This document shows, in pieces, positions 37,880 through 55,095 of a stretch of 64,000 nucleotides of DNA. This stretch comes from Leisingera sp. ANG1 (GTDB taxonomy: Bacteria; Pseudomonadota; Alphaproteobacteria; Rhodobacterales; Rhodobacteraceae). Location: positions 1 to 64,000 of the forward strand of contig NZ_AFCF02000009.1 in the NCBI RefSeq assembly GCF_000203975.2, read 5' to 3'. A model generated the notes under the pieces. That model worked only from the letters and a program-made list of their open reading frames with translations. It made no database searches and was not told the DNA's origin. Position numbers and translations under genes: made by a program. The first letter of the stretch is position 1. Every line of letters begins with the position of its first letter.

Positions 37880-39049
37880 TCACTTGCAGCCGGCAATCGC
37901 CGCGCCAATCTCTTGCAACAGCGCCGGATAGAACTGCGGCCCCGGTTCCAGCCCCGCCCCCAGCGGATCCAGCACAGCGGTGCCGGCCGCGGTGCCGTCC
38001 AGCACGGTGGCAACCAGCCCCGGGTTGAACTGCGGTTCCGAGAACACGCAAGCCACTTTCAGCTCCGCCACCACATCCCGGATTTCCGCAACCCGTGCCG
38101 GGCTGGGCTTCACTGCGTCGCTCAGCGAGATCGCCCCGGCCGCGCTCAGGCTAAAGCCTTGCTCGAAATACTGATAGGCGTCATGGAACACGATGAACGG
38201 CTTGGCCCGGAAAGGTTCCAGCGTGGCCGAAACGCTTGCCACGGTTTCCGCGATCTCCTGCTTGCCGGCCTCAGCATTCGCCCGGTAAGCGGCAGCGTTG
38301 TCCGGGTCGTGCTCTGCCAGCTCCTCTGCGATCACATCCAGCCAGGCCTGCGCATTGGCCGGCAGCAGCCAGGCATGCGGGTCGGCACCCTCATGGTGAT
38401 GTCCGTGGGCATCGGCGTGATCTTCTTGGCCGTGCTCTCCGGCATGTTCCTCGTGATCATGCCCTTCGTGGCCATCATGACCCGCATGGTCGTCATGGCC
38501 TTCAGCGTGGTCTTCATGCCCGTGGTCTTCGTGATCATCATGGCCCGCATGCGCAGCTGCTTCAGCATGCTCCGCATGACCATGATCGCCGTGGCCGTCA
38601 TGATCTGCATGATCCTCATGCCCGCTGTGGTCATCGTGATCGCCATGCTCCTCCTGATCATCATGCGCATGTGCCTCAAACCGGGCTCCTTCACGGAACG
38701 GCAGCACCGTGGTGCCTTCGCTTTCCAGCAGCTCGATCCGGTGCGCATCACCGGCCAGTTCCTCCAACGGACCTTCCAGCCAAGGGGTCAGAGCTCCCCC
38801 CAGCCAAAACACCACATCCGCTTGGTCCAACGCCCGCGCCTCGGAGGGGCGCATCGCATAGCCATGCGGCGAAGCGCCCGGCGGCACCACAAGGGCCGGC
38901 TCGCCCAGACCCTGCATCACCCGCGCCACCAGCCCGTGCACCGGCGCGATATCCGCCGCCACTTGCGGCACCTCTGCCACCGCGGCCCCTGCCCCCGCCA
39001 GCAAAGCCACCACCGCTGCACCGCATTTCAAAACGCCAGATTTCCGCAT
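37880..39049 (-). CDS. znuA: ZnuA zinc-binding protein with a very long His/Asp/Glu loop
   Basis: 389 aa from ATG 39049. Periplasmic receptor of the zinc ABC importer (cluster A-I). Signal peptide ends near AVAEVPQV. Metal ligands of the family: APVHGLVARVM (His), GASPHGYAMRPSEA, ADPHAWLLPANAQ and the late FSEPQFNPG region. Between about residues 125 and 230 lies a roughly 100-residue loop made almost only of His, Asp, Glu, Gly and Ala, far longer than in typical ZnuA. GGGGCG precedes this ATG; ATG 39061 overlaps the candidate Zur box and has no ribosome site. Divergent from zur-znuCB. Confidence 0.92.
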   Translation of the reverse strand: MRKSGVLKCGAAVVALLAGAGAAVAEVPQVAADIAPVHGLVARVMQGLGEPALVVPPGASPHGYAMRPSEARALDQADVVFWLGGALTPWLEGPLEELAGDAHRIELLESEGTTVLPFREGARFEAHAHDDQEEHGDHDDHSGHEDHADHDGHGDHGHAEHAEAAAHAGHDDHEDHGHEDHAEGHDDHAGHDGHEGHDHEEHAGEHGQEDHADAHGHHHEGADPHAWLLPANAQAWLDVIAEELAEHDPDNAAAYRANAEAGKQEIAETVASVSATLEPFRAKPFIVFHDAYQYFEQGFSLSAAGAISLSDAVKPSPARVAEIRDVVAELKVACVFSEPQFNPGLVATVLDGTAAGTAVLDPLGAGLEPGPQFYPALLQEIGAAIAGCK

Positions 39050-39060
39050 GTCGCGCCCCA

Positions 39061-39112
39061 TGTAATCTTATAACATCACGCCGCTTGATAAACGTCATAA
39101 CATAACATATCA
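39061..39112. promoter_or_regulatory. Candidate Zur boxes in the znuA/zur divergent gap
   Basis: TGTAATCTTATAACATCACG (39061-39080) is an imperfect palindrome centred on TTATAA, close in form to Zur boxes described for alphaproteobacteria. A second AT-rich element (39086-39112) has TGATA / TATCA ends around CATAACATAACAT. Both lie between znuA and zur, so zinc-dependent autoregulation and uptake control are expected. Confidence 0.6.
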
Positions 39113-39150
39113 AGAGGCAAATCCGCCGCCGCGCAGAAGGACCCCCGCAT

Positions 39151-39633
39151 ATGGATTCCATCGGCTTTGCCCCGCACGACCACACGAGCTGCATCCAGGA
39201 CGGGATTGCCGCTGTGGACGCCCAATGCCGGGCAGAAGGCCTGCAGTTCACCCCGGTCCGGCGCCGGGTACTGGAAATCCTGCTGCAGGAGCACCGCGCG
39301 CTGGGGGCTTATGAAATCCTCGACCGGCTGCGCGAGGAGGGGCTTGGCTCGCAGCCGCCCGTCGCCTACCGCGCGCTGGATTTCCTGGTGAAAAACGGCT
39401 TTGCCCATAAGATCGAGCGGCTGAATGCCTTCATCGCCTGCACCCATCCGGGCGAAAGCCACGCGCCGGTCTTCCTGATCTGCCGCGCCTGCGACGCCGT
39501 GGCGGAGGCGCAGCGCGAACCCACACAGGGCCAGCTTGGCGAGGCCGCCCGCGACGCCGGTTTTGTGATTGAGCGCGCGGTGATCGAGGCCGAGGGCCTA
39601 TGCCCGAAATGCCAAGAGAAGCCCGCCGCATGA
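39151..39633 (+). CDS. zur: Zur zinc-responsive Fur-family repressor
   Basis: 160 aa. Fur-family repressor that shuts off zinc uptake when zinc is sufficient. Winged helix: FTPVRRRVLEILLQEHRALGAYEILDRL and PPVAYRALDFLVKNGFAHKIERLNAF (the YRALDFLxxxGxxHK form of Zur). Metal sites: ACTHPGESHAP, CRACD and the C-terminal CPKC, which give the structural Cys4 zinc. Four-base overlap with znuC (ATGA), so repressor and transporter are co-transcribed. Confidence 0.94.
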   Translation: MDSIGFAPHDHTSCIQDGIAAVDAQCRAEGLQFTPVRRRVLEILLQEHRALGAYEILDRLREEGLGSQPPVAYRALDFLVKNGFAHKIERLNAFIACTHPGESHAPVFLICRACDAVAEAQREPTQGQLGEAARDAGFVIERAVIEAEGLCPKCQEKPAA

Positions 39634-40388
39634 GCAGCCTGATCTCCCTCGACGGCCTCACGGTGGCGCATGGCGGCAACACGGTGCTGTCCGGCGTCAG
39701 CCTGTCGATAGCTCCCGGCGAGATCGTTACCGTGGTCGGCCCCAACGGCTCCGGCAAGTCCACTCTCTTGCGCAGCGTGATCGGCGCACAGAAGCCTGCG
39801 CGCGGCACCATCACCCGGGCGCCGGGGCTGCGGATCGGCTATGTGCCGCAGAAACTGCACATCGACCCCACCCTGCCGCTGACCGTGCGCCGCTTCCTAA
39901 GCCTGCCGGACCGGGTATCTGACACCCGTGCCGCGGAGGCATTGGAGCAGGCCGGCGCCGGAAATCTGGCAGCGCGGCAGATGTCCGGCCTGTCCGGCGG
40001 CCAGTTCCAGCGGGTGCTGCTGGCCCGCGCGCTGCTGTGCAATCCGCAGCTGCTGATCCTGGACGAGGCCACCCAAGGGCTGGACCAGCCCGGCTCCGCC
40101 GCCTTTTACCAGCGCATCGAAAAGGTCCGGCAGGAGCTGGGCTGCGCGGTGCTGATGGTCAGCCACGAGCTGCATGTGGTGATGGCGGCCTCCGACCGGG
40201 TGATCTGCCTCAACGGCCACGTCTGCTGCGAGGGCGCGCCAGAGCATGTCGCCTCCGCCCCGGAATACCGGGCGCTGTTCGGCACCGGCACCCAAGGCGC
40301 GCTGGCGCTTTACCGGCATGAGCACAATCACAGCCATGATCACGGCTGCGAACATGATCACGGGCATCATCACGAGGCTGCCGAATGA
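39630..40388 (+). CDS. znuC: ZnuC zinc ABC transporter ATPase
   Basis: 252 aa. Walker A VVGPNGSGKSTLL, signature LSGGQFQRVLLARAL, Walker B LLILDEATQGLD and the switch VSHELHVVM. The C-terminal ~20 residues are His-rich (YRHEHNHSHDHGCEHDHG), an unusual tail that may bind cytosolic zinc. ATG 39630 chosen for the ATGA overlap with zur. Overlaps znuB by four bases. Confidence 0.93.
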   Translation: MSSLISLDGLTVAHGGNTVLSGVSLSIAPGEIVTVVGPNGSGKSTLLRSVIGAQKPARGTITRAPGLRIGYVPQKLHIDPTLPLTVRRFLSLPDRVSDTRAAEALEQAGAGNLAARQMSGLSGGQFQRVLLARALLCNPQLLILDEATQGLDQPGSAAFYQRIEKVRQELGCAVLMVSHELHVVMAASDRVICLNGHVCCEGAPEHVASAPEYRALFGTGTQGALALYRHEHNHSHDHGCEHDHGHHHEAAE

Positions 40389-41191
40389 CCTTGCTGGACG
40401 ATTTCCTGATCCGTGCCGCGCTGGCGGGCATCGGCGTGGCGCTGGCCGCGGCGCCTCTGGGCTGTTTTGTGGTCTGGCGCCGGATGGCCTATTTCGGCGA
40501 TGCCACCGCGCATGCCTCGATCCTCGGCGTGGCGCTGGCGCTCAGTTTTGACGTCTCGGTCTTTGCCGGGGTGCTGGCGACCGCGCTGGCAATGGCTACT
40601 ACGGTTTCGGCTTTGGCGGGCCGCGGCTACGCCATGGACACCCTGCTGGGTGTGCTGGCGCACTCCTCGCTCGCCTTCGGCCTGGTCGCGGTCTCCTTTC
40701 TGCAGGGGGTGCGGATCGACCTGATGGCTTATCTGTTCGGCGATATCCTGGCGGTGGGCCGCGGTGATCTGGCGGTGATCTGGGGCGGCGCGGTGCTGGT
40801 TCTGGCGCTGTTGTGGTGGCGCTGGTCGGCGCTGCTGACGGCAACCCTGAACCCGGATCTGGCCCATGCCGCCGGCATTGACCCCCGGCGCGAGCAGATG
40901 GTGCTGACCATTGCGCTGGCGCTGGTGGTGGCGGTTGCGATCAAGGTCGTCGGCGTGCTGCTGATTGCAGCGATGCTGCTGATACCGGCCGCTGCAGCGC
41001 GGCCCTTTGCCGCCACGCCGGAACGGATGGCGGCCATTGCGGCGCTGCTGGGCATGCTGTCGGCTGCCGGCGGCTTGCAGCTGGCCTTTGCGCTGGACAC
41101 CCCCGCTGGACCCAGCATCGTCTGTCTGGCTGCAGGCCTTTTTGCCGCCACCAGCCTCGCCGGTCTGCTGCTGCGGCGCAGCCGCGGCTGA
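40385..41191 (+). CDS. znuB: ZnuB zinc ABC transporter permease
   Basis: 268 aa, about eight membrane segments. ABC-3 family metal permease: CFVVWRRMAYFGDATAHASILGVALA near the N-terminus, YLFGDILAV, and IKVVGVLLIAAMLLIPAAAAR, which are characteristic of ZnuB. Last gene of zur-znuC-znuB. Confidence 0.94.
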   Translation: MTLLDDFLIRAALAGIGVALAAAPLGCFVVWRRMAYFGDATAHASILGVALALSFDVSVFAGVLATALAMATTVSALAGRGYAMDTLLGVLAHSSLAFGLVAVSFLQGVRIDLMAYLFGDILAVGRGDLAVIWGGAVLVLALLWWRWSALLTATLNPDLAHAAGIDPRREQMVLTIALALVVAVAIKVVGVLLIAAMLLIPAAAARPFAATPERMAAIAALLGMLSAAGGLQLAFALDTPAGPSIVCLAAGLFAATSLAGLLLRRSRG

Positions 41192-41268: not shown

Positions 41269-43554
41269 TCAGCTGCCGGTGCGCTGCAGGTCCGGAGCGC
41301 CGGTCCATTTGCTGATCGCCTCGGTCAGCGCTTTCTTGTTGATCGGCTTGCTCAGGAAATCATCCATCCCGGCCTGCAGGCACTTTTCCCGGTGCGACTG
41401 CAGCGCATTGGCCGTAAGCGCCACAATCGGGCATTTGCTGCCGCCGTTCTCGGCCTCGATCCGGCGCATCTCTGCAGTGGCCTCAAGCCCGTCCATCTCC
41501 GGCATCATCATGTCCATCAGAACGATGTCGGGCCGCGCAGCCTCAAACTGGGCAACGGCCTCAAGACCGTTCCTGGCGATGCTGATGTCCAGCGGCGCGT
41601 TTTTCAGCATCTTGGTCACAACCAGCTGGTTGGTGCGGTTGTCCTCTGCCAGGAGCAGTTTCAGCCGCTGCTCCGGCGGCTCGCTGCCGCGTTCCTGGTT
41701 TGCATCAGGTTCCGCCGTCTGGAGAGGCAGGCTCAGCACCCGGTCCAGCACCTGCCGCAGCTGCACAGACCGCACCGGTTTCAAAGCAAACTCACAGGCG
41801 CCGATGGCCTCGCAATCCGACCGGCTTAGCGCATGCTCAACCGACGACAGGATAATCAGCGGCACGGTTTCAAATCCCGGCATCGCCCGGATCCGCGCCG
41901 CCAGCGCGCGCCCGTCCATGGCCGGCATCTGGAAATCCAGAATCACAAAATCAAAACGTCGGCCGTCCAGCTGCGCATCGGCCAGGATCTCCAACCCCTC
42001 ATGCGCCGAGGCCGCCAGCGTGCAGGACACACCCCAGGCGCTCAGCCGTTCGGACAGGATCACCCGGTTCAGCTCCAGATCGTCGACCAGCAGCCCGTGC
42101 AGCCCGGAAAAGTTCTGCGGGCTGCCCTGCGGAACCGCAGCCGCCTGGCTGCCGGGCCGCAAGGGGAGCTCAATGGTAAAGACCGATCCTTCGCCCGGAA
42201 CTGACTCCACCTGCACCGATCCGCCCATCAGCGAAAGCAGCTGCGACGAGATCGCCAGCCCCAGTCCGGTGCCCTCAAAGTTGCGGGTGGCGGCGTTGTC
42301 GGCCTGCTCGAAGGCCCGGAAAATCTTGCCGATGCGGTCCGCCTCAATGCCGACCCCGGTGTCACGCACCCGCAGCTGCAGCAGATGGCTGCCGGACTCC
42401 TGCGCCTTCCCGGTCACCTCGATATAGACATAGCCTTCGCGGGTGAACTTGACCGCATTGCCCGCCACATTGGTAATCACCTGCCGGATCCGGCCCGCGT
42501 CGCCCTCAAAGACCTCGGGCAGCGCCGGGTCATAGCGCATGGTGATCTCGACGCCCTTTTCCGCCGCCTTCGGTGACAGCAGGGTCACCACATCCTCCAC
42601 CGCGGTCTGCAGATTGAAGGGCTCGATGGCGAACTCGACCTTGCCGGCCTCGATCTTGGAGAAATTCAGAATGTCATTGATGATCGTCAGCAGCGCCGAG
42701 CCGGACTTGGCAATGGTCTCTGCATACATCTGCTGATCATCATCCAGCTCGGTTTCCTGCAGCAGTTCCGCCATGCCGATCACCCCGTTCATCGGGGTGC
42801 GGATCTCATGGCTCATATTGGCAAGAAACTCTGATTTCGCCCGATTGGCGATATCTGCAGACTCCCGCGCCTGCTCCATCGCAAACTCGCGCTCGTCGCG
42901 CTCGGCAAAGGTCTCCTCCAGCACGCCGACCGAGAAATCCAGCGCCCGGAACTCGCGCGAGGCGTACCAGGGCAGCCTTTGCGCCGGGCTGCGCAGGCCG
43001 GAAATCGCGTCCGACATCCGCTTGTGGATCATCTGCAGCGGACGCAGTGCCAGCCCGTGCACCAGCAGCAGAACCAGCAGCGACAACACCAGCACCGGCA
43101 CCACCGTCCAGATGATGATCTGACGCACCGAAGCCGCCACCAGCGCCTCGCCTTCCTGGGTCGACCATTCGACCACCATGGTGCCAAAAACCGCGCCTTC
43201 CAGCTCAATCGGGCGTTCATACATCACCCGGCCGCCTTCGGGCGGAGCACCGGCGGCTTCCGCCGACGCCAGCATCTTGCCTGCCGGGCTGCGGATCTGG
43301 ATGGAGACAATTTGCGGCTTGCGGGTGACGGCCTCAATGAGGCCGGTTTCCAGCACCGGCACATCCTCGACAATAATCGATTCCAGCATCAGACCGCTCA
43401 GCAGCGACACCGTCAGGTCCGCCTGCTCCGCCAACTGCTTTTCCAGCCGCTGCGCCTCCTGGCGCTGCGCCAGATCGCCGACCACAAAGCCGACCGCCGA
43501 GGCCGCCAGCAAGAGCGACAGCACGATCTGGAAAAGGATGCTTGTACGTTTCAT
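41269..43554 (-). CDS. Hybrid histidine kinase with two receiver domains
   Basis: 761 aa. TM1 about 7-25, a periplasmic sensor about 26-144, TM2 about 145-167, HAMP-like linker, then HisKA with [19 protein letters not shown] (phospho-His249) and HATPase motifs [42 protein letters not shown]. Two receivers follow with phospho-Asp candidates Asp540 (VILDFQMP) and Asp681 ([13 protein letters not shown]). No HPt domain is present. It lies 17 bases after the PhnD-like gene in the same operon, so the binding protein may deliver a signal to the periplasmic domain (inference). Confidence 0.92.
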
Positions 43555-43571: not shown

Positions 43572-44468
43572 CTAGAAGGCCAGGCTGCGCTCCATCGCCC
43601 GGCGGATAATGTCATAATCCTGATCGTCCCCCAGCAGGAAGCCGTTCTTCGAAATCCGGCGCACGATCTCCTCGTTTTCCGAGGACAGCATCACCTTGCG
43701 CATCGCTTCCAGCACGTTCTCCGGCATCTCCGGCGACGCCAGCCAGGGCTTGGTCACATTGTCAAAGGAGGCCAGCACCCGGATCGGAACACCCTTGGCA
43801 ATCAGCTTTTTGTAAGTGCTTTCCTTCAGGGCACCCGCGGTGTAGCGGCCCGCGCCCACGGCCTCGCCCACCAGATCATGGCGGCCAAGATAGGCAAATT
43901 CCAGCAGATCGCCGCTGTTGATGCCGGCTTCCAGCAGATGTTCCTGCGCCAGGTAGCGGCCGATGGTCGACAGCTCGTCGCCGAAGGCAAAGCTGAGCCC
44001 GGCCAGGTCCGCAACCGACTGCACCGTGCTGTCGGCATGGACCACGATCACCCCCTTGAACCGCTTCTGGCCGTTCTGGGATTCCATCGCAATGATCCGG
44101 ATCTCAGGGTTTTCCTTCATCACATGCACATAGGACGCCGGGCCGAACCTGGAGAAATCCACTTCGCCGCTGGCCAACTGCCGGATGCCTTCCTCGTATT
44201 CCTTGGCGATCTTCAGCCGGATCGTCACCGGCTCTCCCAGCTCCTCGCTCATCCGTTTGGAGAGGAAGGAGAGAAAGGGCTGGTATTTTTTGACCGTTGC
44301 GGTTGGTTTATCCGCCGCATAAGTGCCGAAAACCAGATCTGTTCCGGCCAGACCGGCCGTGGGCAATATGGCCGCCATACAGGCAGCCAGAACCGCGGCG
44401 GCGGCGGCATGCCTCAGCCGTTTCCGGAAAAGCGCAATGATACCAAAGGTCCACTCAAACAGAATCAC
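43572..44468 (-). CDS. PhnD-like phosphate/phosphonate-type periplasmic binding protein
   Basis: 298 aa. N-terminal signal/anchor ([21 protein letters not shown]) and a PhnD-family type-2 binding fold: [54 protein letters not shown] (the GDE-S-S-G pattern), and [13 protein letters not shown]. The GTG at 44468 has AGGAGG eight bases upstream and gives a good signal peptide; the frame extends to ATG 44537 without one. There is no ABC permease or ATPase beside it, only a hybrid kinase, so a sensory and not a transport role is likely (inference). Confidence 0.87.
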
Positions 44469-44701
44469 GGTTCTCGCCTCCTGAGTCGCATCGGCTCGCA
44501 CGGCAGGAAGGCCGCGCTTCTTCGTTACATGGCACATGGTTAAGAATACAATGTTAACGCACCTGCAATTCTCGGAAAAATTTTGCGGTTCTTTTATTCT
44601 TCGGCCTCTATATTAACCCTTCAGTAAGGTTTTCGTAATCTTTTAGGCAAATTCGCCTTAATTTCGGAACGACACACTCAGCTGGCCCGACAGGAACCAC
44701 C

Positions 44702-47700
44702 GTGACGCAGACCCCTATGCTCTCCAGGACCACCCGGTCCCACCGCCGCTCAGCACAAACCATTGTGCTCACGTCCCTTTTATCCGCGCTCCCGGTTGCG
44801 GCCTTTGCCATTCCCTCGCCGGAACTGGTGATCGGCTCGGTCTCTTCGCTGTCCCAGGTCCTGGCCGTAGGAATTGCCATGATTTCCGGTTTGGGCGCTG
44901 TCATTGCGGCGAAACTGGGTTTTACCCCCAAACCGGGCGCCTCACCGCGGCGCTACCCGGTCAAGCTGATCTCCGTCCTCGTTCTGGCAGCCATGGCTCT
45001 GGCTGCAGGCAACTATTGGCAGTATTCCTCGCATGAGCAGGCTGAGCTGGCAAGACTGCAGGCCACTTTGACACGGCCAGCGCAGTTTGACGGCACCACT
45101 ATCAAGGACGCCTCGCTCAAGGAGACCAGCTTCTCCAAGCAGGAGGATCACCCGCTGGCGATGAGCACCGCAGACGCGGCGGCAGCGCTGGAGGACGGCG
45201 CCACCCTGTTCTACGACATCCGCGAAACCGGTGAGAACGCCATGGGCACCCTGCCCGGCGCCACCCATATCCGCTTCCCGGACTTCGTTGAGAGCCAGCC
45301 GGTGCAACCCGGCCAGAAGGTCGTTCTGTTCTGCCACAACGGCAACCGCTCCTCGGAAACCTGTGCCAAGCTGGCGGCGATGGGCATTGACTGCAGCTTC
45401 ATCGCAGGCGGCATCGAGAAGTGGATCGTCGAGGGGCGCGAGTTCTCCGACAAGGACGTGCAATCCCTCTCAGACCTGCGCGCGATCCCGGAATACCCGG
45501 GCAAAGACGTGCTGCTCAGCACCGCCGATTTCGAGGCGCTGCTGACCACCGAGGACCTGCAGATCGTCGACACCCGCTATCCCGGCGACTTTGAAACCGG
45601 CCACTTGCCCGGTGCCATCAACATCCCGATCCGCAAGATGACCACCGCGGACCTGATGGAGCGCATTGCACAGCTGGACCCGGCCAAACCCACCATCGCC
45701 GCCTGTTATGACCGCCGCAGCTGCTTCATGAGTCAGGTGCTGGGGCTGGAGCTGTCGCAGCAGGGCATCGACTTCCGCGGCCGCTATACCCTGCCGTGGG
45801 AATACTTCGTCGCGCCGAAGCCGAAACCGCATGTGCAGGAATGGCTGGCAGGTCAGCAATCCACCCTCTGGGACAAGGCGATCTCGGCGCTGGCAGCCGC
45901 CCTTCTGTGGGTGCATGGGCGCAGCCACATCCTGCTGGGCCTGCTGGCGCTGTCCATCGTGACCCGCATCCTGGTGCTGCCGGTGGCGCTGAAATCCGAA
46001 CGCGACCAGATCATCACCAACGAAACCGCGGATGAGATGAAGGCGCTGAAGGCGAAACTGGCCCATGACCCGGTGCGCAAGGCGCGCGCGGTGCAGGCGT
46101 TCTATGCCGACAAGGGCCTGACGCCGATGAAGAACCTCACCGCGCTGTTGTTCCTGCCGGTGATGATGCTGGGCGTCTCCGCGGCTCAAGAGGCCAGCGC
46201 CTCGCTGCAAACCCCGTTCCTGTGGATGGCTGACCTCGGCCTGCCCGACCCGCTGTTCATCCTGCCGGTGCTGTTCTGCGCGCTCGCTGCCGTCTATCTG
46301 CTGTGGGCCGTGGCCAAGACCCCGCGCCAGAAAACCCTGTGGATGGTGCTCGGCATGCCTGCGCTCTTTGCAATGGTGTTCACCCTGACAGCCGCCGCAA
46401 ACGCCTATCTCTGCTTCAGCCTGACGCTGCTGCTGGTGCAGCGCGCCTACGTCACCGGCATGCACCGCAAGCTGGGCGAAGCCATCGCCCTGCGCGCCCA
46501 CAAGCGCCGCCTCGCCAAACTGCCGCGCGGCGTGATCCCGATGGGCTACACCGAGGAACTGGAGCACGCCGGCAACAAGGCCCTGCGCCTGTCGATCCTG
46601 CGCAACGCCGGCCTGCCGGTGCCGGGCGGCGTGATCGTGCGCTCCGACGCAATCCACGACTACCGCGAAATGTCCGGCGCCAAGAAAGACGCCTTTGCCG
46701 CCAAGGTCTTTGCCCTTGCAGGCGGCAAACCGGTTGCCGTGCGCTCCTCCGCCAGCAATGAGGACGGCCACGACCAGAGCTTTGCCGGCGTTTTTGAATC
46801 TGTGCTCGACGTGACCGCGGACACCATGCGCGCCGCCCTGGACGAAGTGGTGGAAAGCTTCTCCTCGGACCGCGCCGCCAGCTACTCCGGCGAGGGCGAC
46901 AGCTCCGATCAGGGCAACATCGTGGTGCAGGAAATGGTGCAGGCGGAATACGCCGGCGTCCTCTTCACCCAGGACCCGATGGCCCCCGGCATGGCAATGA
47001 TCGAATGGGTCGAGGGCTGCGGCGAAGACCTGGTGTCCGGCCGCGTCACCCCGACCTCCTTGCGCTTTGGCCGCTACACCGGCCTGCCCGCATCCGAAGA
47101 TCAGGACCAGACGCTGGACATGGCGCCGCTGCTGGCCCTTGGCAAGCAGATCGAGGACACCTTCGGCTGCCCGCAGGATGTCGAATGGGCCTATGCCAAC
47201 GGCCAGTTCCAGATCGTGCAAAGCCGCGACATCACCACGCTGTCGCTTGGCACCGAACAGGAACAGACCCGTCTGGCCGAATGGCGCGATCTCTTGGACC
47301 GCTACGCCGATGCAGACCCGGACCAGACCATCCTGGAACAGGACGAAATGTCAGAGGTCCTGCCCCGCCCCACCCCGCTCTCCTTCTCGCTGATGAGCGA
47401 GCTGTGGGCGCCGGGCGGCAGCGTTGACCTGGCCTGCCGCGCCCTTGGCGTGCCCTACGGCCTGCCCGAGGGGCGCGACGGCCATCTGGTCAACCTGTTC
47501 GGCAAGACCTATGTCGATGTGGCGCTGAAACAGGGCATGACGCTCAAGCTCACCGCCGCCAAGGCCAAGCAGCTGCGCAAGCAGGCGCATCCGATGATCA
47601 CCCGCTTCCGCAACGAAGTGATGCCGGAACTGCGCAACAAGCTGGCGATCTGGCAGGCCGTGGACTACACCGCCCTGCCCCAGGACAAGCTGCTGGAGGC

Positions 47701-48736
47701 GATCTCCACCCTCAAGGACATGTTCATCCGCGAGGTCTATCTGGAAGCGGAGAAGATCAACATCCTGGCAGGCTTCACCATGGGCGAGGCAGGCACGGCG
47801 GCGGCCGGCGACCCGGCCTTGCGCGCGCATCTGATGCACGCAGAGCTGCCCAACGCGCCCTCCAGCCTGCTCGCCTCCTGCACCGGCAAGGATGCCCAGT
47901 CCCGCGCCATGCAGCTGATGGGCCACCGCTCAATCTTCGATTACGAGCTGTCCTCGCCCCGCTACACCGAGGCGCCGGCGCTGCTGCACTCCCTGCTCGA
48001 CAGCACGGTGGAGCCGATCGGCGCCGTTCCGGTCCCGGCCAACCTGCCGGATGAGCTGGACGATACCATCGGAATCGCTATCGCCTATCAGGATCTCAAG
48101 GAACAGGCCAAGCACGAGGCCCTGCGCGTCGTCGCCGAACTGCGCCGTGCCCTCTTGGCACTGGGCCGGACCAGCGGGCTGGAGGATCTGGTGTTCAGCC
48201 TGACCTTCGCGGAGGTTCTGGACAGCAACTGGTCCAACCCGGCCCCCCTGCGCGATCTGGCAGGGGCACGGGCAGAGAAAGAAGCGCTGCGCAAGAAATC
48301 CGCACCCACCGACGTCACCCTGACCCTGCGCGACTGCGAGCTGCTGTCGCTCGGCGCCCAGGCCCAGGCGGGCGACGGCACCATGGGCGGCACCTGCGTT
48401 GCCGGCAGCGGCAGCGCCACCGCCCGGGTGTTCTGGATGGAGGACGACAGCTGCATCGACCCGGCCGCCTTTGCAGACTTCCAGGACGGCGACATCCTGG
48501 TCTGCCGGATGGTCAACCCGGCCTGGCTGCCGTGGGTCCAGCGCTCTGGTGCGGTGCTCAGCGAGGTCGGCGGCTGGCTCAGCCACATGGCCATCGTCGC
48601 GCGTGAAAAAGACGTGCTGATGCTGGTCGCCTGCAAGGGCCTCGACAGCCTCAGCCACGGCGAGCAGGTGACCGTCAGCGAAGACGGCAGCATCCAGCCG
48701 CTGGAGGAAAAGGGCCTCAAGGTGGTTTCCGCCTGA
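44702..48736 (+). CDS. Rhodanese-rhodanese-YidC-like-PPDK/PEP-utiliser fusion protein
   Basis: 1344 aa, one uninterrupted frame. Three membrane segments (about 20-104), rhodanese domain 1 (about 150-250; Cys211 in LFCHNGNRSSETC), rhodanese domain 2 (about 270-375; Cys335 in IAACYDRRSC), a YidC/Oxa1-like membrane segment (about 395-585; LSIVTRILVLPVALKSERDQ, MKNLTALLFLPVMMLGVSAA, LGLPDPLFILPVL), then a PPDK/PEP-synthase N-terminal ATP-grasp domain (about 620-890; GNKALRLSILRNAGLPVPGG, VAVRSSASNEDG, VVQEMVQAEYAGVLFTQDP) and a PEP-utiliser swivel domain (GGWLSHMAIVARE, phospho-His1295). The C-terminal PEP-binding barrel is absent, as in rifampin phosphotransferase-like proteins. GTG start at 44702. 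Function unknown; sulfur transfer, membrane insertion and phosphotransfer in one chain is unusual. Confidence 0.85.
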   Translation: MTQTPMLSRTTRSHRRSAQTIVLTSLLSALPVAAFAIPSPELVIGSVSSLSQVLAVGIAMISGLGAVIAAKLGFTPKPGASPRRYPVKLISVLVLAAMALAAGNYWQYSSHEQAELARLQATLTRPAQFDGTTIKDASLKETSFSKQEDHPLAMSTADAAAALEDGATLFYDIRETGENAMGTLPGATHIRFPDFVESQPVQPGQKVVLFCHNGNRSSETCAKLAAMGIDCSFIAGGIEKWIVEGREFSDKDVQSLSDLRAIPEYPGKDVLLSTADFEALLTTEDLQIVDTRYPGDFETGHLPGAINIPIRKMTTADLMERIAQLDPAKPTIAACYDRRSCFMSQVLGLELSQQGIDFRGRYTLPWEYFVAPKPKPHVQEWLAGQQSTLWDKAISALAAALLWVHGRSHILLGLLALSIVTRILVLPVALKSERDQIITNETADEMKALKAKLAHDPVRKARAVQAFYADKGLTPMKNLTALLFLPVMMLGVSAAQEASASLQTPFLWMADLGLPDPLFILPVLFCALAAVYLLWAVAKTPRQKTLWMVLGMPALFAMVFTLTAAANAYLCFSLTLLLVQRAYVTGMHRKLGEAIALRAHKRRLAKLPRGVIPMGYTEELEHAGNKALRLSILRNAGLPVPGGVIVRSDAIHDYREMSGAKKDAFAAKVFALAGGKPVAVRSSASNEDGHDQSFAGVFESVLDVTADTMRAALDEVVESFSSDRAASYSGEGDSSDQGNIVVQEMVQAEYAGVLFTQDPMAPGMAMIEWVEGCGEDLVSGRVTPTSLRFGRYTGLPASEDQDQTLDMAPLLALGKQIEDTFGCPQDVEWAYANGQFQIVQSRDITTLSLGTEQEQTRLAEWRDLLDRYADADPDQTILEQDEMSEVLPRPTPLSFSLMSELWAPGGSVDLACRALGVPYGLPEGRDGHLVNLFGKTYVDVALKQGMTLKLTAAKAKQLRKQAHPMITRFRNEVMPELRNKLAIWQAVDYTALPQDKLLEAISTLKDMFIREVYLEAEKINILAGFTMGEAGTAAAGDPALRAHLMHAELPNAPSSLLASCTGKDAQSRAMQLMGHRSIFDYELSSPRYTEAPALLHSLLDSTVEPIGAVPVPANLPDELDDTIGIAIAYQDLKEQAKHEALRVVAELRRALLALGRTSGLEDLVFSLTFAEVLDSNWSNPAPLRDLAGARAEKEALRKKSAPTDVTLTLRDCELLSLGAQAQAGDGTMGGTCVAGSGSATARVFWMEDDSCIDPAAFADFQDGDILVCRMVNPAWLPWVQRSGAVLSEVGGWLSHMAIVAREKDVLMLVACKGLDSLSHGEQVTVSEDGSIQPLEEKGLKVVSA

Positions 48737-48762
48737 TCCAGCTGGACAGGAAGAACAGAAAA

Positions 48763-48790
48763 GCCCGCAGCATTTGGCTGCGGGCTTTTT
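48763..48790 (+). terminator. Terminator after the fusion gene
   Basis: GCCCGCAGC (48763-48771) and GCTGCGGGC (48777-48785) with a five-base loop and TTTTTG, preceded by AAAA. Confidence 0.85.
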
Positions 48791-48882
48791 GCATCCGGCG
48801 GTCAATCTGCCCGCCATATCCCTTCCCCCTTGCACTTTTGGCAAAGATTGCCATATCCTGTTTCAGCGAAAGGAGCCCGCCC

Positions 48883-49119
48883 ATGGCCACCATGAACGTC
48901 TCCCTGCCGGAGCAGATGAAAACTTGGGTCGAGGAACAGGCCCGCACCGGCACCTATGCCAATTCCAGCGACTATGTCCGCGACCTGATCCGCCGCGACC
49001 AGGCCCGCACAGCCGCCATTGCCGAACTGCAATCCGCCATTGACGCGGGCCTTGCCAGCGGCCCGGCGGAACAGCTGACAGCCGAAGGTTTCAAGGCCTC
49101 CATGCGCCGCAATGGCTGA
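48883..49119 (+). CDS. parD: ParD-family antitoxin
   Basis: 78 aa. Ribbon-helix-helix DNA-binding antitoxin: MNVSLPEQMKTWVEEQARTG, YANSSDYVRDLIRRDQ and a C-terminal toxin-binding helix (AIDAGLASGPAEQL... FKASMRR). AAAGGAG seven bases before the ATG. It overlaps parE by eight bases, antitoxin first, the standard order for autoregulated pairs. Placed 3-4 kb from the replication module, where such pairs stabilise replicons. Confidence 0.93.
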   Translation: MATMNVSLPEQMKTWVEEQARTGTYANSSDYVRDLIRRDQARTAAIAELQSAIDAGLASGPAEQLTAEGFKASMRRNG

Positions 49120-49414
49120 GCTGCGCTGGCGGATCCGCCCCGCCGCCCGCGCCGACCTTGCCGCGATCTGGCGCTATGGCTTGGAAACTTGGGGCGAAAC
49201 GCAGGCCGACGCCTATGCCGACAGCCTGTTTGCTCTGTTCGACTTGCTCGCGGACTTTCCCGAAATGGCCCGCGAACGGGCGGAATTCACGCCTCCGGTC
49301 CGCATCCACCCCACCGGTGCGCATCTGGTGATCTACCGCATCGAACAAAACTGCCCGGAAATCATCCGCATCCTGCACGCCCGCCAGGACCTGATGGCGT
49401 TCCTGTCGGAATAA
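49112..49414 (+). CDS. parE: ParE/RelE-superfamily toxin
   Basis: 100 aa, typical ParE length. RWRIRPAARADLAAIWRYG, AYADSLFALFDLLADFPEMARER, GAHLVIYRIE and IIRILHARQDLMAFL follow the ParE pattern; ParE toxins act on DNA gyrase. Intact, with no visible truncation. Confidence 0.92.
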   Translation: MAELRWRIRPAARADLAAIWRYGLETWGETQADAYADSLFALFDLLADFPEMARERAEFTPPVRIHPTGAHLVIYRIEQNCPEIIRILHARQDLMAFLSE

Positions 49415-52553: not shown

Positions 52554-53237
52554 TCACGCCTCCACAACAATCGCGGAGACGCCGCTGTCCACATCCCGGC
52601 AGGCCGCCAGCAGCCGCGGCATCAGATGGGACATCACGTAGTTCGCATGGAACCGGCTCGGCGCCTTCAGCACCAGCCGCCCCCCTGCCCGGCCCGCGCG
52701 CTCCAGCCCCTGCACCCAGGAGGCATAATTCGCCGGATCCTCTGCATGCAGCACCGCCTTGGCAAGGCTCCACTCATGGCCGTCCGACACATCCGGCGCA
52801 GGCGGCACCGCACCGGGGCGCAGCGGCACCACATTTGGTGCAGGCTCGTCATTGCTTTGCATCCGGTGCTCAAAGTCCGGCCCGACTGCGCCCCAGCGCT
52901 CCTGCGTGTCCGCCAGCAGCCGTTCCAGATCAATGCCGTATTCGGTGACCCGCCCGCGCGCGCCCTGGCGTTTCACCACCAGCCAGCCCCAGCCGCGCAG
53001 CTTTGCCATCTCGCGCTTCACCGTACGCTCGTCCACATCCCATAGCCGGGCAATCTCCCGCTGCCCGACGGCCAGCTCATCGCGCTGCCAGTTGTAGCGG
53101 GCGGTCATCAATGTCATGAAACGCAGAACCAGCTTCTGCGCCCCCTTGCCCTGGCCAAGCGCATAAGCCCCCATCGCCGTGAGGATGTCATACTTCAATG
53201 CAGAGGCGTTGCGCCCCGCAGGCCGTTTGGCAAGCAT
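52554..53237 (-). CDS. Plasmid replication initiator of the DnaA-like replicon type
   Basis: 227 aa from ATG 53237 (frame open to 53396, but the extra N-terminus is polar and low-similarity in look). Begins RPAGRNASALKYDILTAMGAYA, then a winged-helix-like part (ELAVGQREIARLWDVDERTVKREMAKLRGWGWLV) and a C-terminal segment resembling the N-terminal domain of DnaA (WSLAKAVLHAEDPANYASWVQGL... FHANYVMSHLMPRL). This matches the short initiators of Roseobacter DnaA-like replicons, which lack the AAA+ domain of true DnaA. Transcribed away from parAB across an origin-like gap. Confidence 0.82.
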   Translation of the reverse strand: MLAKRPAGRNASALKYDILTAMGAYALGQGKGAQKLVLRFMTLMTARYNWQRDELAVGQREIARLWDVDERTVKREMAKLRGWGWLVVKRQGARGRVTEYGIDLERLLADTQERWGAVGPDFEHRMQSNDEPAPNVVPLRPGAVPPAPDVSDGHEWSLAKAVLHAEDPANYASWVQGLERAGRAGGRLVLKAPSRFHANYVMSHLMPRLLAACRDVDSGVSAIVVEA

Positions 53238-53790
53238 TGCTGCCCCCGTTTCTCCCTCCCTGCCCTCCTGGGCCGGGATATGCTGCCTCAAGTGCTCCCG
53301 GGGTTTTTGCCGGGAATGGCGCTGGCCGGTTTGCCCTGAACTCAACGCTATTTGTTTGTTGTACCTGATTTGCGTCCGGAATTCCGATTCTGTCAAGCGC
53401 TGGCGGGAATTGAATTCAGACCCAATCCCTTTTTCGAAAGAAAAATTGGTATCTATGGTATTGGGTGACAGCTTGGATGTCCCCTATTCGCGCCAAAATG
53501 TCCCCCAATCTGCTGTATCCCGATCCGGGGTGTCCCCCTAAATCTGGCGTCTGAACCCCAGAAAAATCCAGTAAAACGAATCGCTTGGCGCCTGCCTCAC
53601 GAATCGCCCCTGCCCTTATTTCACTGGGCCTTTTGCAGATGTGTCCCCGCGGGGACAGGACGCTCATCCCAACCATATTTGCTTTTGCGTTTTTTGCAAA
53701 TTCGGCGTAAATGGATATTGAGGCTGAATTAGCGTCCTGCAGAAATGGACGCTTTCAAAAAACAACACCGTGTGAGGCTAAGGAGCAGCG
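53238..53790. other. Probable replication origin / control region
   Basis: The gap between initiator and parA. It has AT-rich inverted repeats (CCAAT 53422-53426 / ATTGG 53445-53449 enclosing TTTTTC-GAAA-GAAAAA), three direct TGTCCCC copies at 53478, 53499 and 53531 (spacings 21 and 32), one full palindrome at 53642, an AT-rich run at 53675-53735 and an inverted repeat GCGTCC/GGACGC (53732-53752). Divergent genes, AT-rich DNA and repeats fit an origin; direct proof is absent. Confidence 0.6.
53642..53657. repeat. Partition-type palindrome, copy 1
   Basis: TGTCCCCGCGGGGACA, a perfect 16-bp palindrome, between the initiator and parA; candidate parS. Confidence 0.7.
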
Positions 53791-55095
53791 ATGTTTACGC
53801 ACGAAGACCTGTCCAAGATGCAGGCCCAATCCCTGAAGATGCAAAGCTGGATCCGCCAGCAGACTTTCTCCCCTGAAATGGAAAAGACCCTGCGCCGGTT
53901 CTCTTCCTGGGAAGTGGCGGAGCTGATCTTCCGCGTCAACCAGTCGACCCTGCGGGGACGGCTCGCCACCGACCCCTCCCTGCCCCAGGGCCATGTGGAG
54001 GAGGACGGCCGCCAGCGCTGGTATTCGCTGGAGGAGATCAACGAGCTGCGCCGCCGCATCAAGATCAACCGGCAGTCCCTGCTGCCCAAGCGCCCCGCGG
54101 GGAAACGGGCGCTGCGGGTGGCAATCTCCAACTTCAAGGGCGGTGCGGGCAAATCCACCGTGGCCCTGCATTTCGCCCATGCCGCGGCGCTGGACGGCTA
54201 CCGGGTGCTCTGCGTCGACTTCGACCCGCAGGCCACCCTGTCCCACTCCATGGGTCTCAGCGACGTCACCGAGGATTACACCGTCTGGGGCATTATGGCC
54301 CGCGACCTGGTGCGCGAGACCACGCGGATGAACGCCTCGCTGCAGGGCGCCGAGTCCGGCACCGCCCTGCCCCAGCGCCAGCTGCCCGAGGCGATCACCG
54401 GCATGGGGCTGCAGGACCTGCGGGTCAGCGATTTCGTCAAGCCCACCAGCTGGCCGACCATCGACATCATCCCCTCTTGCGCCAATGCGGCCTTTGTGGA
54501 ATTCGCCTCCGCCCAGTACCGGCACCTGAACCCGGAATGGTCGTTCTTTGCGGCCGTGTCCCGCTACCTCGACCAGCTGCCGTCTGAGGATTACGACCTG
54601 ATGATCTTCGACTGCCCGCCTGCCATCGGCTACCAGTCGATGAACGCGGTCTTTGCCGCCGACATGCTCTATATCCCCTCCGGCCCCGGTTACTGGGAAT
54701 ATGACTCCACCACCTCCTTCATCGGCCAGCTGTCCGAGGCGCTGGAGGATTTGTCCGCCTTTAACGGCGTTGTCCCCGCGGGGACATTTGCTTTGCCCAA
54801 GGTTTTTCAGGACGTCCGCTTCCTTCTGACCCGTTACGAAAGCGGTAACGATTTGCACCGTGCGATGCGTTCGGCATTTATGAAGGTTTTTGAGGGTAGG
54901 ATGACGGAGCACCCGATCGAGATGACCCGCGCAGTCGAACAATCGGGCCGCTTCTTAAGTTCCATCTACGAAATCGATTACCGGGATATGACACGCGAAA
55001 CCTGGCGCCGTGCGCGGGCGTCGTTTGATCAGGCCTATGACGAGTTCAAGGCCTACGCGCTGGAAGCCTGGGAAAAACTGGAGGATGAGGCATGA
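53791..55095 (+). CDS. parA: ParA-type partition ATPase
   Basis: 434 aa. Deviant Walker ATPase that moves ParB-bound replicons. An N-terminal HTH-like region (about 35-95: SSWEVAELIFRVNQSTLRGRL... YSLEEINELRRRI) precedes the deviant Walker A FKGGAGKSTVALHFAHA (116-123 core), FDPQATLSHSMG and DLMIFDCPPAIGYQSMNA. The N-terminal extension is that of type Ia/RepA-like ParA proteins, which repress their own operon. Codons 328-332 (VPAGT) are one of the 16-bp palindromes. AAGGAG precedes the ATG; overlaps parB by four bases. Confidence 0.93.
   Translation: MFTHEDLSKMQAQSLKMQSWIRQQTFSPEMEKTLRRFSSWEVAELIFRVNQSTLRGRLATDPSLPQGHVEEDGRQRWYSLEEINELRRRIKINRQSLLPKRPAGKRALRVAISNFKGGAGKSTVALHFAHAAALDGYRVLCVDFDPQATLSHSMGLSDVTEDYTVWGIMARDLVRETTRMNASLQGAESGTALPQRQLPEAITGMGLQDLRVSDFVKPTSWPTIDIIPSCANAAFVEFASAQYRHLNPEWSFFAAVSRYLDQLPSEDYDLMIFDCPPAIGYQSMNAVFAADMLYIPSGPGYWEYDSTTSFIGQLSEALEDLSAFNGVVPAGTFALPKVFQDVRFLLTRYESGNDLHRAMRSAFMKVFEGRMTEHPIEMTRAVEQSGRFLSSIYEIDYRDMTRETWRRARASFDQAYDEFKAYALEAWEKLEDEA
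54771..54786. repeat. Partition-type palindrome, copy 2 (inside parA)
   Basis: Identical 16-bp palindrome, read in frame as VPAGT (codons 328-332 of parA). Confidence 0.7.

Follow-up and report, generated by a model that had tools for sequence, protein, structure and literature searches.

A 64,000-nucleotide stretch of Leisingera sp. ANG1 DNA (contig NZ_AFCF02000009.1; hereafter the window) contains, at positions 44702-48736 of the + strand, a single open frame of 1344 aa that begins at GTG, ends in a stop codon and has no stop between, and in which two rhodaneses and a YidC/Oxa1-like membrane core are joined to a C-terminal enzyme half with the fold of rifampin phosphotransferase (RPH). The source genome holds one copy of this fusion gene (contig C20, 100% identity). 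Judged by homology, which supports its chemistry well, the protein is a new membrane-built variant of the RPH-type phosphotransferases. A functional tie with the binding protein and the signal transducer encoded beside it is likely, because this partnership survives both rearrangement and replacement of the partner families. The reading we prefer, to which we assign a probability of roughly 0.4, is that the fusion acts as a transmembrane, AMP-forming ATP:acceptor phosphotransferase of RPH type, tied to its rhodaneses and to the compound sensed by its partners; that it is an ATP-dependent phosphotransferase at all is, on the homology described below, highly probable.

Each half of the protein was known before, and it is their joining that is new. 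Literature searches found no publication describing a rhodanese-YidC-phosphotransferase fusion, the few matches appearing unrelated, and we know of no other case in which sulfurtransferases in the periplasm are linked by a YidC core to an ATP-dependent phosphotransferase in the cytoplasm. If the preferred reading is true, a single chain would couple sulfur chemistry to phosphotransfer on the opposite side of the membrane, and the YidC fold would serve something besides protein insertion. The fusion also casts doubt on names under which relatives are filed publicly, among them "phosphoenolpyruvate synthase" (P0102), "rifampicin phosphotransferase" (P0036) and "YidC/Oxa1 family membrane protein insertase" (P0064).

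Domains, active sites and integrity of the fusion protein

The features of the fusion gene are as follows.

44702..48736, + strand: fusion gene, 1344 aa, with signal peptide, two transmembrane helices, two rhodaneses, YidC-like core, ATP-grasp domain, acceptor domain and phosphohistidine domain
44702..44809, + strand: predicted cleavable signal peptide, residues 1-36, ending ...VAAFA ahead of the conserved IPSPEL; cleavage putative
44846..45019, + strand: two predicted transmembrane helices, residues ~49-66 and 88-106; the loop between them (71-86) is positively charged, hence predicted to be cytoplasmic
45167..45427, + strand: rhodanese 1, residues 156-242, with Cys211 in the loop CHNGNR (Pfam, conservation, fold match)
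45512..45817, + strand: rhodanese 2, residues ~271-372 (limits approximate), with Cys335, a second invariant Cys341 and the short loop CYDRR
45935..46453, + strand: YidC/Oxa1-like core, residues 412-584, with five predicted transmembrane helices and Arg422 (Pfam, alignment, fold match)
46544..47251, + strand: ATP-grasp domain, residues ~615-850, with K626, R681, S700, Q840 and R842 (Pfam, RPH alignment)
47252..48391, + strand: acceptor domain, residues ~851-1230, with K1133, E1134 and K1137, in the same place as the rifampin-binding domain of RPH (RPH alignment)
48479..48676, + strand: phosphohistidine swivel domain, residues 1260-1325, with His1295 at 48584-48586 (Pfam, conservation)

All Pfam matches exceeded the gathering threshold: PPDK_N (2.9e-35, best stretch at residues 676-789), Rhodanese (1.9e-22, in two stretches), PEP-utilizers (2.3e-14) and 60KD_IMP/YidC (5.1e-14); no family of the phosphoenolpyruvate (PEP)-binding barrel was among them. 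The preliminary description of the window had proposed just this set, two rhodaneses with a YidC-like part, an ATP-grasp domain and a phosphohistidine swivel without the PEP barrel, and Pfam bears it out; what that description missed was that the domains follow the order of RPH, the topology of the protein, and the binding-protein and transducer partners. The active residues that it pointed to are confirmed as well, Cys211 (in CHNGNRSS) and Cys335 (in CYDRRSC) being present in 62/62 family members and His1295, which lies within GGWLSHMAIVARE, in 60/61, the lone exception (L077) being out of frame at that point. Equally constant are R216, R339, C341 and R422 (each 62/62), and K626, R681, E768, Q840 and R842 (each 61/61), while C221 and C231 of rhodanese 1 are found in 61/62 members each; 9/70 and 10/70 locus rows are left out of alignments A3 and A4, respectively. 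The rhodaneses, with a mean pairwise identity of 65 and 64%, are the most conserved domains and the acceptor domain, at 43%, the least. At the N-terminus, a hydrophobic peak at residues 21-31 is preceded by ~2.9 K/R, and IPSPEL is unchanged in 14/14 rows of alignment A2.

The C-terminal half (residues ~601-1344) spans model residues 1-734 of 744 in its fold match to RPH, and has the ATP-grasp, acceptor and C-terminal phosphohistidine domains in the RPH order. By alignment, it keeps counterparts of the RPH catalytic residues K22, R117, T136, R666, E667, K670 and H825, with Ser or Thr in the fusion family at T136 and Lys at R666. Rifampin phosphotransferase (5hv1-5hv3, 5fbs-5fbu) thus shares with the fusion its three domains, their order and its catalytic residues; it differs in that here the acceptor domain has diverged and the enzyme follows rhodaneses and a membrane core in the same chain, and the score of the fusion with the RPH model NF041857 is 126.3 bits, against a cut-off of 999. 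PEP synthase and pyruvate phosphate dikinase also combine ATP-grasp and swivelling phosphohistidine domains, but carry the latter mid-chain, whereas in the fusion it is C-terminal and no PEP-binding barrel is listed; the score with the PEP synthase model TIGR01418 is 123.3 bits against 739.75. The prodiginine ligases PigC and RedH, which have no membrane or rhodanese part, resemble the fusion by NCBIfam over the ATP-grasp and other parts, and again the scores are far below the cut-offs (PigC model NF052631, 119 against 1300 bits; RedH model, 145.3 against 1350). The earlier suggestion of an ATP-driven phosphotransfer is thereby strengthened and sharpened, insofar as fold and aligned catalytic residues point to an enzyme of RPH type.

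The membrane core belongs to the YidC/Oxa1 superfamily, both by its 60KD_IMP match and by its YidC fold. It has in common with the YidC/Oxa1 insertases the five-helix core, the cytoplasmic hairpin and the groove arginine, a residue with a role in those insertases; Arg422 is the one that aligns with the groove Arg of E. coli YidC. Unlike them, it has two rhodaneses in place of P1 and a large enzyme on its C-terminus, and with the insertase model TIGR03592 it scores 53.5 bits, below the cut-off of 84.3. Each rhodanese domain has its catalytic Cys; the fold match is mainly to domain 1, whose CHNGNR fits the loop C-x4-R, CYDRR of domain 2 being shorter. The charge rule and YidC homology together suggest that the enzyme half is cytoplasmic and, with a high degree of confidence, that the rhodaneses are periplasmic. 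The preliminary idea of membrane sulfur handling is therefore plausible, given invariant cysteines in domains predicted to be periplasmic, while a coupling of this sulfur chemistry to phosphotransfer is still a supposition.

The fusion is not due to chance, because among the best 120 of 484 related proteins (E <= 0.001) 119 hold all four Pfam domains, P0121 alone being without PF00391. A contig search yielded 78 loci with identities down to 38%; in 70 of these the frame exceeds 1250 aa, seven are broken by contig ends, and one, L076, from a metagenome-assembled genome (MAG), has one in-frame stop within the last YidC helix. A frameshift limited to this strain, which had been raised as a possibility, is thus not the explanation. 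Shorter proteins were also sought: a profile of the N-terminal half retrieved 73, of about 300-960 aa. Nine short forms were examined first, seven of them from this set (P0124, P0130, P0131, P0134, P0135, P0138 and P0150) and two from a further search (P0198 and P0200). As judged by BLAST, 29 of the 73 end in unmatched tails of at least 12 residues, 41 end at scattered points elsewhere, and three (P0130, P0154 and P0155) have a matched end near the border between YidC and ATP-grasp. In P0150 the first part of PPDK_N runs straight into an EAL domain, as could result if a deletion had reached into a GGDEF-EAL gene lying downstream. Relatives with the domains as separate genes, the other objection foreseen, are not a feature of the family at large, with one reservation: P0154-P0157 (644-648 aa, mutual identity 47-68%) look like a true short-frame clade, containing the rhodaneses and the YidC core and all stopping soon past the first ATP-grasp motif. 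Their DNA was not found in plasmids, where the search returned the same 82 records as for the fusion, all at <60% identity, nor in 398 genomes of the phylum, where the three matches were all full fusions.

Spread of the fusion and its partner genes

Though rare, the fusion is conserved, and occurs in marine bacteria and relatives of these. It is present in 25/390 Rhodobacterales genomes and 8/139 genera, the source genome included, and in 2/385 genomes of the class sample (query, the distant member L100; E <= 1e-100). The 82 plasmid records are from Phaeobacter (59), Leisingera (17), Tritonibacter (3), Parasedimentitalea (2) and Ruegeria (1); other copies lie on very long, chromosomal-looking contigs (P0064 on 4.6 Mb and P0078 on 3.1 Mb), and the 78 loci include Hyphomicrobiales MAGs and a Devosia MAG. 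Three entries appear to be mislabelled: a record titled Nocardioides marinus (L075) has an 82% identical Rhodobacterales-type copy and its title is probably wrong, and P0116 and P0175, one of them named PigC, are filed under the sea spider Nymphon striatum and are probably bacterial contamination.

Two genes next to the fusion in the window recur beside it elsewhere, for instance on pPGA2_239 of Phaeobacter inhibens 2.10, where all three are found.

43572..44537, - strand: partner 1, a PhnD/PtxB-type periplasmic binding protein, divergent from the fusion across a 164 bp gap
41269..43554, - strand: partner 2, a membrane hybrid histidine kinase with two receiver domains (Pfam, NCBIfam, tblastn)

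Where both flanks extend for at least 4.5 kb (53 loci), tblastn placed a binding protein within 5 kb of the fusion in 50, many of the 53 being close Leisingera relatives and not independent cases; the same flanking search gave no binding-protein match farther than 5 kb away. Co-occurrence of neighbours had been proposed as a check, and the binding protein and transducer are what it brought out. In 46 of the 50 the binding protein is of PhnD type and accompanied by a kinase, and in four it is of PstS type, with a GGDEF-EAL protein in three (L100 by Pfam, L094 and L098 by tblastn only) and a chemoreceptor in one (L104, which has weak cross-matches to both kinase and GGDEF and was assigned by Pfam). 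Over all 78 loci, tblastn matched 57 PhnD-type and eight PstS-type binding proteins, 59 kinases and seven GGDEF proteins, some of them weak or broken by contig ends. These figures replace those from the calling of open reading frames (51 kinases and 50 binding proteins; n = 79 including the window), in which spurious antisense frames masked genes. The binding-protein gene is upstream and divergent in 52 of the 78 loci (50 PhnD-type, 2 PstS-type), downstream and convergent in seven, and downstream and co-directional in six. In a quick, midpoint-rooted tree (nine Leisingera rows of 71 left out), the PstS type is confined to an outer group of 13 rows, within which L079 and L080 keep the PhnD type. 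This exchange of sensor families around a constant fusion offers a route to the substrate through the ligand of the binding proteins.

A PhnD-type protein paired with a histidine kinase is also the arrangement of known sensor systems, AioX/AioS and ArrX, and ArrX and Aio proteins were among the PDB matches of the PhnD-type binding protein. As in the window, these systems have the binding-protein gene beside a hybrid kinase gene; their third gene is an oxidase or reductase, that of the window the fusion. Arsenite sensing of the AioX type was considered and rejected, 46/50 PhnD-type binding proteins having no cysteine past residue 60.

Proposed mechanism and competing explanations

In the mechanism that we favor, ATP on the ATP-grasp domain of the cytoplasmic half would phosphorylate His1295, and the swivel domain would move to the acceptor domain, where K1133, E1134 and K1137 would help to pass the phosphate to a small molecule; by homology with RPH, AMP and inorganic phosphate would be produced besides the phosphorylated acceptor. 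The YidC-like core would join this enzyme to the two periplasmic rhodaneses, which by homology may carry or strip sulfane sulfur at Cys211 and Cys335. The binding protein and transducer would sense a periplasmic compound and elicit the response of the cell, and the substrate of the fusion would most likely be this compound or something derived from it: outside, the rhodaneses would work on the compound, the YidC groove would give it or an intermediate access to the cytoplasmic side, and the phosphorylation would trap or activate it there. The link between substrate and sensed ligand is a guess to which we give even odds, and passage through the YidC core one that we consider doubtful. In its most far-reaching form, which strikes us as quite improbable, the scheme would be a group translocation by one polypeptide, in which the binding protein delivers, the rhodaneses handle sulfur, the groove passes and the AMP-forming phosphorylation traps, with the kinase, the cyclic di-GMP enzyme and the chemoreceptor as interchangeable sensors tuned to the same compound.

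A number of observations weigh against the preferred reading. To our knowledge, no solute passes through a YidC core; a regular YidC is encoded at another place in the source genome (212.6 bits, the fusion scoring 58.1), and the long rhodanese region contains ~30 K+R, so that the charge rule is little informative there. P0154-P0157 come from split genes or else from a variant that lacks most of the enzyme half. Low conservation of the acceptor domain may mean that substrates vary between members. Three loci with full flanks (L093, L096 and L097) are without the partners (a binding protein upstream in L096, of TAXI type with a TRAP permease, was not counted), and in the distant loci listed the genes around the trio differ, with no other recurring gene and no pathway pointing to a substrate. 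Even the ligand class is uncertain, given the changed pockets of both types of binding protein. For the window protein the nearest solved relatives are phosphite/phosphonate proteins (5jvb, 2.1e-21), and it keeps Y114, S190, T191 and H220 of the phosphite site, described for Te_PtxB in PMC5700983 as Y55, Y100, S130, T131, S132, H160 and the cap Y208; in the window protein Y100 is replaced by Phe, the third Ser by Ile and the cap Tyr by Lys. Across 50 sequences these positions read Y, F, S, T, I, H and K (the Ile being Val in one), which departs from the PtxB-type site. K263 leads us to guess that the PhnD-type partner binds an anion carrying an additional negative group. The PstS-type partner resembles PstS (4exl, 5.4e-11), and the GSGSR motif of 4exl is absent in L100 and found in none of six aligned PstS-type sequences.

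One alternative, which we regard as unlikely, is that the protein is a kinase gated by redox state or persulfide: the rhodaneses would respond to sulfane sulfur or to redox conditions (Cys335/Cys341, Cys221/Cys231), the core would relay the signal with nothing crossing the membrane, and the enzyme would make a phosphorylated signal or turn a compound over. The additional conserved cysteines, the signalling nature of the partner genes and the position of the rhodaneses as the most conserved domains would suit such a sensor. Against this, the acceptor keeps its catalytic residues, which points to a chemical substrate, and a separate transducer already supplies signalling; we know, moreover, of no RPH-type enzyme that serves as a signal output. 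An equally unlikely scenario is a membrane-associated enzyme of detoxification or inactivation, whose YidC-like groove would gather an amphipathic foreign compound, for example a sulfur-containing natural product, to be phosphorylated by the RPH-like half while the partners give warning. RPH, the closest fold, inactivates rifampin, and the patchy spread (25/390 and 2/385 genomes) and the 82 plasmid records are in keeping with such a role; yet the score of 126.3 is far below the RPH cut-off of 999, copies also lie on chromosomal-looking contigs, and no further gene recurs beside the fusion across distant loci, resistance genes not having been searched for as such.

We consider it very unlikely that the fusion is a specialised YidC-family insertase, whose attached ATP enzyme would drive or gate its work, with the rhodaneses as periplasmic chaperone or cysteine handlers for a few clients. 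The retained YidC fold and R422, the rhodaneses in the P1 position of YidC and a short-frame clade with rhodaneses and core but little of the enzyme would all agree with insertion, for which a conserved acceptor site and a phosphohistidine would be superfluous; the TIGR03592 score is low (53.5 against 84.3 bits), and no client gene recurs, save the binding protein and transducer. Least probable of all is that the partnership reflects inherited plasmid gene order without functional meaning, as for Zur and ZnuB, which adjoin the fusion in 39 loci and in 0/14 loci listed at <=50% identity, since the binding protein and transducer persist where other order is lost, the binding protein varies in position, and the outer group swaps in another binding-protein family with other transducers.

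A role in selenophosphate synthesis, suggested by the AMP + inorganic phosphate stoichiometry together with the rhodaneses, was dropped as unsupported. SelD exceeds its cut-off in 312/380 genomes of the order, and the fusion is not dependent on it, because five fusion-positive genomes (G008, G030, G142, G184 and G272) have only weak SelD matches (E ~5e-10 to 8e-9).

Further neighbours in the window

At window positions 37880-41191, znuABC and a Fur-type regulator adjoin the kinase, a linkage of the plasmid-rich clade; ZnuA is unusually His/Asp-rich. A zinc link through znuABC/zur was discarded, as these genes are missing from the distant loci. Behind the fusion, an RpiR/MurR regulator is found in 21/78 loci, at 66-159 bp in nine and at 724-4797 bp in 12 of Leisingera type. 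The SIS domain of such regulators can bind sugar phosphates; we take this gene as a weak hint on function and did not count it as part of the system. The layout behind the fusion was noted in the window (48737-49414) and at L038, L047, L057 and L073; in the window and in Leisingera sp. S132, a ParDE toxin-antitoxin pair separates the fusion from this regulator. Further downstream, at 52554-55095, the 526,712-base contig encodes a replication-type protein (DnaA-N in annotated relatives) and a ParA-type ATPase; the same gene block is carried on a 108-kb plasmid in a close relative, and the window may thus belong to a larger or cointegrate replicon.

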